Assembly: GCA_002718595.1 (NCBI GenBank)
Contig: PBFD01000007.1
Location: 27,845-67,481 of the forward strand
Source: Gemmatimonadota bacterium
GTDB lineage: Bacteria > Gemmatimonadota > Gemmatimonadetes > Longimicrobiales > Gaopeijiaceae
Reading direction: 5' to 3'
DNA length: 39,637 nt
The first letter of the stretch is position 1, and every line of letters begins with the position of its first letter. The position numbers and the translations under genes were made by a program. Shown here one piece after another: positions 10,786-15,422 of this stretch. The notes beneath the pieces are model-generated. The model searched no databases and had not been told where the DNA came from. It was given only the letters and a program-made list of their open reading frames with translations.

Positions 10786-11790
10786 CTACTGTGAAGTAAG
10801 TCGTACTATTCCATTTTGCTTTCTGAGTGTTTCATCAAGTAAAGCAACCATCGCATGCACAGTATCTATACTTGGAGTGGGAATATTCACCAATCGGCCG
10901 AGCTCCGCCACCACTGCAATGATCGCATCAATTTCAAGTGTCCGTCCAGCTTCGACATCTTGGAGCATAGAAGTTTTGTGTGCACCTACTTTTTCTGCTC
11001 CACCTATACGGCGGTCTATGTCTACCCTGAAAGTAATTCCCAATTTGTTGGCAACGTCTTGGGCTTCCTCCATTAATGTACGTGCTAGAGTTCTGGTAAG
11101 ATCAAACTGGCAAATATCCACCAATGTAGCATGTGTCATAGCGCTAATTGGGTTAAAGGACATATTACCCCAAAGTTTTAGCCACATTTCTGCACGTATA
11201 TCACTAATCTGAAAAGATTTGAAACCTGCATCGGTCAAAAGTTGAACAAGAGATTCTACTCTCTCTGATTCGTTTCCATCCAGTTCACCTAGAGGAAACC
11301 GATTCCCTTCAATGTGACGAACGACTCCAGGTTCGGCTATTTCACCTGCGGGAAATACTACACAACCAATAATGCGGTCTACATCGATACTTTCGGTGAG
11401 GATGCCTGTGGGATCCAAAGTTTCCAGTCTATGCCCCTCAAACTCACCACCGTGTTTCTGAAAATACCACCATGGAAGTCCATTCTGTACAGGAAGGATC
11501 ATGGTATCGGGCCCGCACATTTTGGAAATCCCAGTTGCCACTAACGGGAGCACCTGTGCCTTAACAGCCAAAATTACCAAATCTTGTTCCCCAATATCCT
11601 CCGAAATTTCTACAGCACGGAGATGAGCGTGATGTTCAGAACCATCGCCCATTAACACCTTAAGCCCACCACTCTTTATTGCATCTAGGTGTTCTCCAAC
11701 GTCGACCACTGTAACGTCATTCCCAGAATTACTTAAGTGAACAGCCAGCAACCCTCCTATAGCACCTGCACCAACCACACAAATCTTCAT
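10786..11790 (-). CDS. panE: 2-dehydropantoate 2-reductase family oxidoreductase (ApbA/PanE)
   Basis: 334 residues. The N-terminal Rossmann fold is shown by VVGAGAIGGLLAVHLSNSG. Mid-protein is NGLPWWYF, and the C-terminal helical domain contains WLKLWGNMSFNPISAMT, KTSMLQDVEAGRTLEID and IPTPSIDTVHAM, all typical of ketopantoate reductases, with the conserved Lys, Asn and Ser/Glu positions present. The classical role is NADPH-dependent reduction of ketopantoate to pantoate for coenzyme A. Many family members act on other 2-oxo acids, and the neighbour argues for that possibility. Its ATG overlaps the stop of the upstream FAH gene (TAATG) with a strong GAGGAG site, so the two are translationally coupled. 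Confidence 0.85.
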   Translation of the reverse strand: MKICVVGAGAIGGLLAVHLSNSGNDVTVVDVGEHLDAIKSGGLKVLMGDGSEHHAHLRAVEISEDIGEQDLVILAVKAQVLPLVATGISKMCGPDTMILPVQNGLPWWYFQKHGGEFEGHRLETLDPTGILTESIDVDRIIGCVVFPAGEIAEPGVVRHIEGNRFPLGELDGNESERVESLVQLLTDAGFKSFQISDIRAEMWLKLWGNMSFNPISAMTHATLVDICQFDLTRTLARTLMEEAQDVANKLGITFRVDIDRRIGGAEKVGAHKTSMLQDVEAGRTLEIDAIIAVVAELGRLVNIPTPSIDTVHAMVALLDETLRKQNGIVRLTSQ

Positions 11791-12581
11791 TAATTCTCCT
11801 CATAGAAATTACTGAGAGTGCCTATTCCATCGATATTAACCTCTATTTTAGTGCCAGGCCTCATGGAACCCACTCCTATAGATGTTCCACAACAAATCAC
11901 GTCACCAGGGAACAAAGTCACATCCTGGGAAATCTTACTCACAATAGCTTTCGGTGAAAAAACCATATCGCTCACAGGATAATTTTGTCTTTCTTGCACT
12001 TCTGTAGTGCCAGGTTTGGTCAGAAATGTTTGAACCACCAATTTTTCCGGATCCAATCCAGTGGCAATTACTGGTCCCATCACTCCAAATGTGTCGAAGC
12101 TCTTGGCCCTGGTCCACTGAGGAAAAGTTTCATCTCGATTTACTATCTCAACCGCTGTCACGTCATTGATACACGTATATCCAAATATATAATCTGGCGC
12201 TTGATCTTCATTGACCCCACTACAGATGGACCCTATAACAATTCCCAACTCTCCTTCGAAAACAACCTTACCATCATAGCTAGTTGGCTTCAGAATGTTT
12301 TCTCCATGCCCCAAGTAGCAACCATCTGTCTTCACCCAATACAAGGGCTCTGGAGGTGTGTCCATTCCCAATTTTTCCGCTAACGCATGAAAATTATTCC
12401 AAAGGGCTAACATTTTACCTGGAACACAGGGTATCAAGATCTCAACTTCCTCAAGGCCCACGGTGACTCCTGTGGATTTTGCGCCACCAAACATATCACC
12501 TTCGAAAACCTTAATCCTATCCTCTTCAAGGGTGCCAAAACCTACAGCCTCTTTATGCCTAAAACGAAGCCAGTGCAACAT
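11790..12581 (-). CDS. Fumarylacetoacetate hydrolase (FAH) family protein
   Basis: 263 residues with the FAH fold: metal ligands in VFEGELGIVIG, then GYTCINDVTAVEI, WTRAKSFDTFGVMGP, and the terminal LFPGDVICCGTSIGVGSMRPG with IEVNIDGIGTLSN. Family members hydrolyse or decarboxylate/isomerise 2-oxo or acylpyruvate-type substrates with Mg2+ in aromatic or sugar-acid catabolism; the exact substrate cannot be told. The start ATG has GAGGTG four bases upstream. It forms a two-gene coupled unit with the reductase behind it, which suggests that both act on the same 2-oxo acid pool. Confidence 0.88.
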   Translation of the reverse strand: MLHWLRFRHKEAVGFGTLEEDRIKVFEGDMFGGAKSTGVTVGLEEVEILIPCVPGKMLALWNNFHALAEKLGMDTPPEPLYWVKTDGCYLGHGENILKPTSYDGKVVFEGELGIVIGSICSGVNEDQAPDYIFGYTCINDVTAVEIVNRDETFPQWTRAKSFDTFGVMGPVIATGLDPEKLVVQTFLTKPGTTEVQERQNYPVSDMVFSPKAIVSKISQDVTLFPGDVICCGTSIGVGSMRPGTKIEVNIDGIGTLSNFYEEN

Positions 12582-12683: not shown

Positions 12684-12857
12684 TTACTTGCTTACAGGCG
12701 GTAACTTTTTAAATCCAGGACATGAAACTACAGGCAATGCTGGGTACTTGGGAAAACTCTTGTCTTCCACAGAGCGACGACACAAGAAAAACTTGGATCC
12801 CTTGTTATTCTCCACTTTCCGGAGGAATGTACAATTCTGACACAAACCGACAAACAT
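12684..12857 (-). CDS. Small four-cysteine protein of unknown function, directly behind pgeF
   Basis: 57 residues, too short for common ORF cut-offs, read by me from the minus strand. It starts MFVGLCQNCTFLRKV and has Cys6, Cys9, Cys26 and Cys46 (CQNC, FFLCRRS, VVSCPGF), plus the ordered block SFPKYPALPVVSCPG. The CxxC pair with two later cysteines suggests a small zinc-binding fold. From memory, short proteins with the same plan (CxxC, then FxLCxRS, then YPxLPVxxCPG) occur in several phyla, but I cannot name a characterised member. The ATG lies 2 bases after the pgeF stop, so it probably is the third gene of the MDR-pgeF unit. The opposite strand also holds an open frame (12722-12940), but it looks like no protein I recognise. 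Confidence 0.72.
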   Translation of the reverse strand: MFVGLCQNCTFLRKVENNKGSKFFLCRRSVEDKSFPKYPALPVVSCPGFKKLPPVSK

Positions 12858-12859
12858 CC

Positions 12860-13615
12860 TTATGGCCTGACACCTATCACAGCAACCTGCCTTCCTACAT
12901 CTCCATTTCTATGGGAAAAAAAATCTCTTTCACCACATAAGGTGCAGTCTCCCGAAACGGAAATATTTTCTTTTTTTATGCCTAAATCCCTAGCCTGTCT
13001 CGTTAGAATACCTCTTAAATCCACTGGGGTCGGTTCGGTTGGTTTAGTGAGACCTAAGCTCCTGAAAACTTCTGGTCCAACTTCATAACAATCTCCGCAA
13101 ATAGCAGGTCCAAGATGAACAACAATATCTTCCAATTGAGACCTCCATCTTTCTAACAACAATTCAATACCTTTGGTAACTATCTTACCAGCTACGCCAC
13201 GCCACCCTGCGTGCAACAACATGACTGCCCTGCTCTGCGGATCAAGAAGATATACTGGAACACAGTCAGCAACCGTTATAGATAAAAGTACGCCCGGCCT
13301 GCAAGTGGCATGACCATCTGCGGCCTCCGTTAACACTATGTATCCAGATAACTCCGAGTCATGCACTAATAGGTTGGTTCCATGCACCTGAGGAATTCTA
13401 ACCAAGCTGTTAAAACCAGTTTCTTTCTGAATCTGCTGCATTCGATCATCGCAGTTTATGTCCTCCTTCCTGAGATCAAAAATGTCTGACACAGCACCCT
13501 TATATGTGATTCCAGCCACTGCCCAGGGAAATTGTTCAGACCATTCTTGTAGGGTGTACATTGGCAAGCTAGAACCCATCACATTCTCAGACGTACATGA
13601 CTTCGCAAGGATCAT
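12860..13615 (-). CDS. pgeF: Laccase-domain protein, PgeF/YfiH family (polyphenol oxidase or peptidoglycan editing factor)
   Basis: 251 residues if started at ATG 13615, which overlaps the upstream stop as ATGA; TTG 13621 is an alternative. The conserved metal-site motifs are all there: IPQVHGTNLLV (His), TVADCVPVYLLD (Cys), MLLHAGWRGVAGK (His), then GPAICGDCYEVGPEV and the C-terminal GDCTLCGERDFFSHRN. Known members have been described as polyphenol oxidases, as purine nucleoside phosphorylase/adenosine deaminase enzymes (FAMIN-like), and as editing enzymes that keep L-Ser out of muropeptides. The sequence does not decide between these. It is the middle gene of a coupled trio with the MDR oxidoreductase and the small Cys protein. 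Confidence 0.9.
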   Translation of the reverse strand: MILAKSCTSENVMGSSLPMYTLQEWSEQFPWAVAGITYKGAVSDIFDLRKEDINCDDRMQQIQKETGFNSLVRIPQVHGTNLLVHDSELSGYIVLTEAADGHATCRPGVLLSITVADCVPVYLLDPQSRAVMLLHAGWRGVAGKIVTKGIELLLERWRSQLEDIVVHLGPAICGDCYEVGPEVFRSLGLTKPTEPTPVDLRGILTRQARDLGIKKENISVSGDCTLCGERDFFSHRNGDVGRQVAVIGVRP

Positions 13616-14592
13616 TCCCAATCTATAAGGAGTTTTCCAAAATTCTCGTTGCAGGCCATCATATTATGAGCATCGGCAACTTCATCGGGCGAAAAGATCT
13701 TTTCGACCACTGGTAATATTGCGCCTCCTCCAAAAAACGGAAGAATATCTTTTTCAAAGCTCTCCGTTAATTCTACCTTCTCTTGTAAAGATCGAGCCCT
13801 CAGGACCGTTCCTCTCAGGGTAACCCTCTTACCCATCATCGCACGTAAGTCTATAGTCCCAGACAGCCCTCCGGGAACTCCTACTACTACGTGCCTCCCC
13901 TTAAGAGCTATAACCTTCTGATTGCCACTCAAATAAGGGCCTCCGACCAGATCCAAAATGACATCGACTCCACGTCCATCGGTCGCATCAAGAACGACCT
14001 CAGGCCAACTGTCATCAGCTAAAACCGCATGGTCTAATCCATAGGCGTTGGCTTTATCCAATTTATGAGGGCTCCGAGAAGTCCCAATGGTTTTAACTCC
14101 CAGTACCTTTCCAATTTGCAGCGCTGCCGTTCCCACACCGCTTCCCACTGCATGTACTAATAATGTTTCTCGATTGACAAGACCCATTTGAAGTACAATC
14201 GCATCGAAGGCGGTCATAAAAACTTCTGGTATAGCCCCCGCCTCTTTCAGACCTATACATTCAGGAATTGGTACAACACAAGAAGCATCTGTATTCACGT
14301 ATTGAGCATACCCGCCGCCGCCCAAGATACCCATCACTCGATCACCGATCTTCCATCGATCAACACCTGTACCAAGGGCGTCTACTACACCCGCACACTC
14401 CATTCCAAGTATGTCTTCAGGCCACCCAGCTGGAACTGGATATTGACCCATTCTCTGCAGGAGATCGGCCCTGTTTATTCCTGCAGTAGATATACGCACC
14501 GTTATTTCACCAGCTCCAGGCTGAGGCTTCGGCACTGTCCTCAACTCCAAAACTTCCACACCACCGTGACCGTTTAGGACTACTGCTTGCAT
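13612..14592 (-). CDS. NAD(P)H:quinone oxidoreductase-like zinc-free MDR enzyme (PIG3 family)
   Basis: 326 residues from ATG 14592 (MQAVVLNGHGG), which has AAAGAG six bases upstream and matches the usual family start; the frame is open to 14667, but that would overlap the divergent exonuclease gene. Motifs: INRADLLQRMGQYP, ILGMECAGVVDALG, a cofactor loop in VHAVGSGVGTAALQIGK, and FGGGAILPVVEKIFSPDEV. No structural or catalytic zinc cysteines are seen. PIG3/QOR enzymes reduce quinones or electrophilic enones with NADPH. The stop overlaps the pgeF start by four bases (ATGA), indicating coupled translation. Confidence 0.9.
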   Translation of the reverse strand: MQAVVLNGHGGVEVLELRTVPKPQPGAGEITVRISTAGINRADLLQRMGQYPVPAGWPEDILGMECAGVVDALGTGVDRWKIGDRVMGILGGGGYAQYVNTDASCVVPIPECIGLKEAGAIPEVFMTAFDAIVLQMGLVNRETLLVHAVGSGVGTAALQIGKVLGVKTIGTSRSPHKLDKANAYGLDHAVLADDSWPEVVLDATDGRGVDVILDLVGGPYLSGNQKVIALKGRHVVVGVPGGLSGTIDLRAMMGKRVTLRGTVLRARSLQEKVELTESFEKDILPFFGGGAILPVVEKIFSPDEVADAHNMMACNENFGKLLIDWE

Positions 14593-14654
14593 AGTGTCTC
14601 TTTCATTCATAAGAGTTATGATAATCTTTTGCTTCCACTCAGTCACCCTAAGAA

Positions 14655-15422
14655 ATGAAACTTCCAATTAAACTCGACCGACCGATAGCGTTTTTCGATC
14701 TCGAAACCACTGGATTAGATCCTAAGAGAGATCGGATAGTTGAGCTAGCCATAATCCGACTATCTCCAGACGGAGATGACTTCCAACGGGTAAGAAGATT
14801 CAACCCTGGAATACCCATCCATCCTGAGGCTAGTGCAGTACATGGAATTTTTGACGAAGATCTGAAGTCAGAGGCGCCATTCGAGTCAAGAGCAAGAAAT
14901 CTTTTTCAATTATTAGATCCCTGTGATTTAGGCGGCTTTAATGTGAGACGTTTTGATCTGCCGATGCTCATAGCTGAATTCGCACGATGTGGAATACAAT
15001 TCGATCATCGAAACAGACGCATCATAGATGTTCAAACTATATATCACAGAAAAGAACCCCGAGATCTGTCTGCGGCCGCTAGGTTTTACTTGGACGTTCA
15101 GCACACGGAAGCACACACTGCCATGTCCGACATCCAAACAACGGTAGCTGTTCTTGGCGCCCAGTTAACGAGGTACCCGGATTTGTCTCCCGAAATGGAT
15201 TCCCTTCATTCCTACTGTGATCGATCTCCACTTCGAATCGGTTTTGACGAATGGTTTCAGCGAGAGGGTACGGATGTCCTTTTCGTAAAAGGAAAACACA
15301 AGGGACAGACCTTGAAGAGTGTAGCAGCTGATAAGCCAGACTATCTATACTGGATGCAGAACAACATCGAAGATCTCCATCCTGAAGCCAAAAAGGAAAT
15401 ACAAAAAGTACTTAACTCTTGA
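14655..15422 (+). CDS. DEDDh 3'-5' exonuclease with ExoX-like C-terminal domain
   Basis: 255 residues. Exo motifs in order: FFDLETTGLDPKRDRIVEL (Asp/Glu pair), NVRRFDLPML (second Asp), and HTAMSDIQTTVAV (His and third Asp), defining the DEDDh family of DNA polymerase III epsilon and exonuclease X. The last ~50 residues (VKGKHKGQTLKSV, DYLYWMQNN) match the short C-terminal domain typical of ExoX-like proteins, so a repair exonuclease fits better than the polymerase proofreading subunit. It starts 62 bases from the divergent MDR gene, with a weak ribosome site. Confidence 0.88.
   Translation: MKLPIKLDRPIAFFDLETTGLDPKRDRIVELAIIRLSPDGDDFQRVRRFNPGIPIHPEASAVHGIFDEDLKSEAPFESRARNLFQLLDPCDLGGFNVRRFDLPMLIAEFARCGIQFDHRNRRIIDVQTIYHRKEPRDLSAAARFYLDVQHTEAHTAMSDIQTTVAVLGAQLTRYPDLSPEMDSLHSYCDRSPLRIGFDEWFQREGTDVLFVKGKHKGQTLKSVAADKPDYLYWMQNNIEDLHPEAKKEIQKVLNS

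Follow-up and report, generated by a model that had tools for sequence, protein, structure and literature searches.

A Conserved Four-Cysteine Small Protein behind pgeF in Gemmatimonadota Is Unlikely To Be a Dedicated Partner of PgeF

Introduction

Directly behind a pgeF-like gene in a 39,637-nt stretch of Gemmatimonadota DNA (the whole stretch that was analysed, hereafter the window) lies an open reading frame of only 57 codons, four of which encode cysteine. This locus raises two questions: is the frame a gene, and does its product serve PgeF? An initial annotation of the window had proposed an overlooked gene for a small zinc-binding protein that works with, or regulates, PgeF or the nearby MDR enzyme. 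Of the PgeF/YfiH proteins (PF02578), YfiH acts in the cytoplasm as an amidase and removes UDP-MurNAc-L-Ser (PMC8844914). An unnamed family of small proteins would not be unusual, since only 6.1% of the small-protein families in GMSC contain a known domain (PMC11364881).

Results and Discussion

The Frame and Its Neighbors in the Window

The frame is read on the minus strand from position 12857 down to 12684 (MFVGLCQNCTFLRKVENNKGSKFFLCRRSVEDKSFPKYPALPVVSCPGFKKLPPVSK) and comprises 57 codons followed by a stop. The encoded protein carries Cys6, Cys9, Cys26, and Cys46 and contains the FPKYPALPVVSCPG block. Its ATG is located 2 nt past the stop codon of pgeF (12860–12862). The initial annotation, which did not state the strand, had described a complete frame at this spacing with a CxxC pair and two later cysteines, and this description is exact. 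The accompanying statement that such a composition is far from that of a random frame did not stand up to counting: 13 of the 263 window ORFs of 40–80 residues contain a CxxC motif and at least four cysteines, and shuffled sequence gave about 8 of 331, which places the pattern within chance. Because the pattern is not rare among the ORFs of the window, composition alone does not prove a gene; it is homology that shows this frame to be one.

Table 1. Features around the four-cysteine small gene (window coordinates)
Feature	Position	Strand	Basis
57-aa conserved four-Cys small protein gene	12684..12857	minus	ORF, homologues, invariant residues, dN/dS
Cys codons of the small gene	12842-12840, 12833-12831, 12782-12780, 12722-12720	minus	
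pgeF-like gene (Cu-oxidase_4 / peptidoglycan editing factor family)	12860..13621	minus	PF02578, E = 9.5e-49
PIG3-family NAD(P)H quinone oxidoreductase gene	13612..14667	minus	TIGR02824, E = 6.6e-98, above cut-off
FAA-hydrolase family gene	11790..12581	minus	PF01557, E = 4e-45

The pgeF-like protein of the window scores 128.3 bits against TIGR00726, just below the cut-off of 141.15 that NCBIfam sets for PgeF equivalogs. Upstream of pgeF, and with its own end overlapping that gene, is the gene for a PIG3-family quinone oxidoreductase, which is the MDR enzyme of the initial annotation, and 102 nt downstream of the small gene lies an FAA-hydrolase family gene. Neither arrangement extends beyond the genus of the window. 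G000, G001, and G002 are the only genomes in which the PIG3 gene is found close by, and the FAA-hydrolase gene adjoins the small gene within this genus only (linked in G001 and G002). Since the proximity to PIG3 is confined to one genus, the proposal that the small protein works with the MDR enzyme is unsupported. Scans for consensus matches detected no promoter- or terminator-like sites between pgeF and the small gene.

A Conserved Four-Cysteine Family

By protein search the small protein was found in 56 of 59 relatives. A 23-row profile detected it in 84 of 200 Gemmatimonadota genomes with best E-values of 1e-18 to 1e-26, and within the order a profile search recovered it from 88 of 105 genomes representing 45 of the 48 genera. 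The gene is nearly always present as a single copy. Two contigs labelled as Acidobacteriota (L002, Bryobacterales; L003, Acidobacteriales) also encode the protein, so that, given correct binning, it probably occurs in this phylum too; these were the only two found by a contig scan with a single-sequence query, which under-samples the spread to other phyla. A DNA search intended to place L002 within the phylum yielded no close match. The plasmids, phages, and viral contigs that were searched did not contain the protein.

From 116 loci we extracted 114 cores, 113 of which have the standard length of 47 residues. The spacing C-x2-C-x16-C-x19-C is preserved in all 113 of these cores, and 108 of the 114 contain exactly four cysteines in this register. 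In core numbering, the invariant residues are Gly1, Cys3, Cys6, Cys23, Tyr35, Pro36, Pro39, and Cys43. Arg10 (107 of 113 cores), Gly17, Ser18, Phe20, Asp29, and Val40 are retained in more than 90%, and the family core can be written as GLCxxC...GSxFxLC...D..F.KYPxLPVxxCxGF. The cores are basic, with a mean charge of about +6 (+5.9), Arg or Lys without exception at position 34, and Arg or Lys also at position 16. A conserved histidine was not found in the cores. The dN/dS ratio between the window and G002 from the same genus is 0.076, at a dS near saturation; among other, closer pairs the values lie mostly between 0.04 and 0.25, with a few at 0.33–0.45 (full range 0–0.45). By this measure, the small gene is under purifying selection.

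Pfam and NCBIfam returned no match for the window protein and hold no model for the family, relatives of which gave only sporadic weak matches. Solved structures in the PDB provided no credible match, and a literature search on the protein found nothing. Taken at sequence level, these comparisons describe an unnamed, single-copy family with a basic four-cysteine domain of about 47 residues that is widespread in Gemmatimonadota. The expectation of the initial annotation that the gene is real and has been missed by domain libraries is thereby borne out by more than 100 homologues with invariant cysteines, as are its anticipated conservation of all four cysteines and low dN/dS.

Linkage to pgeF and Its Limits

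One answer to the second question would be that the small protein is, in families f1 and f2, a dedicated accessory of PgeF: a metal-binding partner that stabilizes or tunes the UDP-MurNAc-L-Ser amidase, with other genomic contexts being secondary. We consider this reading unlikely, even though the linkage that suggests it is extensive. In f1 and f2, the lineage of the window, the small gene lies directly behind pgeF on the same strand in 57 of the 67 genomes with enough upstream sequence, corresponding to 36 of 42 genera. In G020 and G027, which belong to two different genera, the C-terminus of PgeF is even fused in frame to the small protein. The repeated proximity to pgeF foreseen by the initial annotation is thus found in this lineage.

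Part of this proximity is inherited gene order, since the region is broadly syntenic in f1. In many f1 genomes, the gene for the E1 component of 2-oxoglutarate dehydrogenase (odhA) is located upstream of pgeF in divergent orientation, and a glycosyltransferase-like gene, named from its sequence, follows the small gene in 22 of 42 genera. The adjacency of pgeF and the small gene is more persistent than that of odhA and pgeF or that of the small gene and its downstream neighbor. The link to pgeF is therefore stronger than other local synteny but not isolated, and with the two PgeF fusions it leaves some coupling to PgeF conceivable in f1 and f2. In some species of genus g25, an additional 1.6–2.2 kb separates the small gene from pgeF: G026 (L079, 6310–8054), G189 (L080), and G229 (L140). 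In G026 this insert contains a partial copy of the start of the small gene (VGLCARCVR) together with a segment that resembles the region upstream of pgeF, which gives it the look of a local duplication.

Outside f1 and f2, none of 44 genomes (f3, f4, f5, f7, and f9) carries the small gene beside pgeF. Judged by these counts, the link is real but confined to the lineage of the window. The upstream partner differs by lineage instead. In f7 the gene ahead of the small gene is uvrC in 12 of 13 genomes, and in f3 the small gene follows genes for DUF2339 membrane proteins or dnaG in several genomes. The contexts in f4 vary, and in four genomes from three genera of this family (G123, G155, G124, and G088; loci L118, L125, L127, and L130, respectively) a YciI domain (PF03795) is fused in frame to the four-cysteine domain; fusion to a neighbor is thus not specific to PgeF. 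In GC-rich genomes of f3, f4, and some of f1, long open frames that span the small gene had suggested further fusions. In these cases, the upstream part proved to be another gene read out of frame or in antisense, which leaves the two PgeF and four YciI fusions as the only ones that hold.

INDEPENDENCE from PgeF is seen in G021, which has cleanly lost pgeF and kept the small gene, while G158 from the same genus (g20) contains pgeF. Alignment of the two loci (L014 and L121) shows that the flanks of the missing gene meet flush at 85–87% identity, consistent with a deletion that removed pgeF, which would otherwise separate the small gene from the divergently oriented odhA. PF02578 gave no match in G021 (99% complete) even at E = 10, although G021, like G040, is a draft genome in which the absence of pgeF could partly reflect assembly. 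Without pgeF, the small gene of G021 still shows a dN/dS of 0.12. In G010 the small gene adjoins odhA and pgeF is located on another contig.

The converse also occurs. Thirteen sampled species of genus g25 lack the small gene, and at least seven of them have pgeF: at seven g25 pgeF loci this gene is kept, with only weak, chance-level matches to the small protein nearby. Across the phylum, pgeF is present in 191 of 200 genomes versus 84 of 200 for the small gene, so that most genomes with PgeF do without the small protein. The two genes are therefore not lost and kept together, with G021 as the exception in one direction and the seven g25 genomes in the other. The small protein is also a separate domain that is not related to PgeF. 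Since different genes precede the small gene elsewhere and the small gene persists past the loss of pgeF, it is improbable that the small protein is dedicated to PgeF. As a general role, working with or regulating PgeF, as the initial annotation had it, is not supported by these distributions. With pgeF deleted in G021, and with uvrC, dnaG, and YciI as partners elsewhere, a hypothesis built on PgeF only is unlikely to be the whole answer.

A Putative Metal Site

Four invariant cysteines without a conserved histidine suggest one structural metal ion, most likely zinc, which could be held in a zinc-ribbon-like fold. Four ligand-type cysteines in register, as expected for a Cys4 zinc protein, are present in all 113 standard cores, and from the C-x2-C-x16-C-x19-C spacing zinc binding is plausible. 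A lone CxxC knuckle with isolated, widely separated cysteines after it is also the arrangement that is more usual for zinc. An AF2 model computed from two sequences reached a mean pLDDT of 51.8, too poor for a fold search, and suggested a hairpin (E12–16/E22–26) past the knuckle.

Known zinc ribbons matched the family weakly and sporadically, in one or two of 112 members. The GRF zinc finger (PF06839, Zn_ribbon_GRF) shares a CxxC knuckle and, behind it, a G-x-x-F-x-x-C strand, and its model matched one of 112 members at E = 0.00096 but not the window protein. In GRF fingers the spacing between the third and fourth cysteines is shorter than the 19 residues observed here, and the present protein is free-standing rather than a domain of a DNA repair enzyme. 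Small zinc proteins of the YacG type (PF03884) are similarly small and consist of one domain with C-x2-C and a further cysteine about 16 residues on. In YacG, however, the fourth cysteine is close to the third, whereas in the small protein it follows 20 residues later, and the PF03884 model matched no member at E ≤ 1.

The same four cysteines might instead bind an iron–sulfur cluster, in which case the protein would be a small module for redox chemistry, electron transfer, or sensing. The lack of a conserved histidine fits this reading as well, and the LRV protein FeS4 cluster domain (PF05484), which likewise has four cysteines in a short domain, matched one of 112 members at a weak E = 0.0016. 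The other 111 members and the window protein did not match this model, and no repeats are attached to the small protein. Moreover, equally weak matches point to zinc ribbons (GRF as above, and those of recombinase and TFIIB), no redox partner recurs in the neighborhoods of the small gene, and the cysteine spacing is more usual for zinc. We therefore regard an iron–sulfur protein as doubtful, on a par with the PgeF accessory.

Proposed Role

The reading that we favor, with confidence no more than moderate, is that of an autonomous, likely metal-binding factor that binds nucleic acid or protein, is translationally coupled to whichever gene precedes it, and is not dedicated to PgeF. The coupling is suggested by the consistent trailing position: in f1, f2, and f7 the small gene nearly always follows its upstream gene tightly. 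The small gene would be co-transcribed with the gene upstream, and its translation would be coupled to that of a housekeeping gene, here pgeF with its 2-nt spacing. Such coupling would provide convenient, steady expression rather than answer a requirement of PgeF. The protein itself may act alone and bind either nucleic acid or protein. The basic core and the association with the DNA enzymes UvrC and DnaG make nucleic-acid binding a first guess, which we put forward with modest confidence. Encoded by a single-copy gene in 45 of the 48 genera of the order and with invariant cysteines, the protein is well placed as a candidate for some basic function of the cell in Gemmatimonadota, few members of which have been cultured. 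This family is absent from Pfam and NCBIfam, and our alignment would allow its annotation.

A portable metalloprotein module might be envisaged in place of this autonomous factor: coupled or fused, depending on the lineage, to PgeF, UvrC, DnaG, YciI, or DUF2339 proteins across the phylum, it would modulate each of these partners. We judge this version to be improbable, and more so than the PgeF accessory or the iron–sulfur protein.

One genome bears on the frame itself. The initial annotation had named the absence of homologues with conserved cysteines, or frameshifts in close relatives, as evidence against a gene. Such homologues are abundant; a frameshift does occur in G001 from the genus of the window. 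This frameshift, together with the chance-level frequency of the cysteine pattern in the window (13 of 263 ORFs), is what could be held in favor of a spurious or non-translated frame, a reading with hardly any probability left in view of the many homologues, their invariant cysteines, low dN/dS, and many different neighborhoods. The break in G001 is a loss of 2 nt in a T-run inside the frame (L061, around 1340–1350) with the codon pattern intact on both sides, and both a sequencing or assembly error and a very recent break fit this observation.
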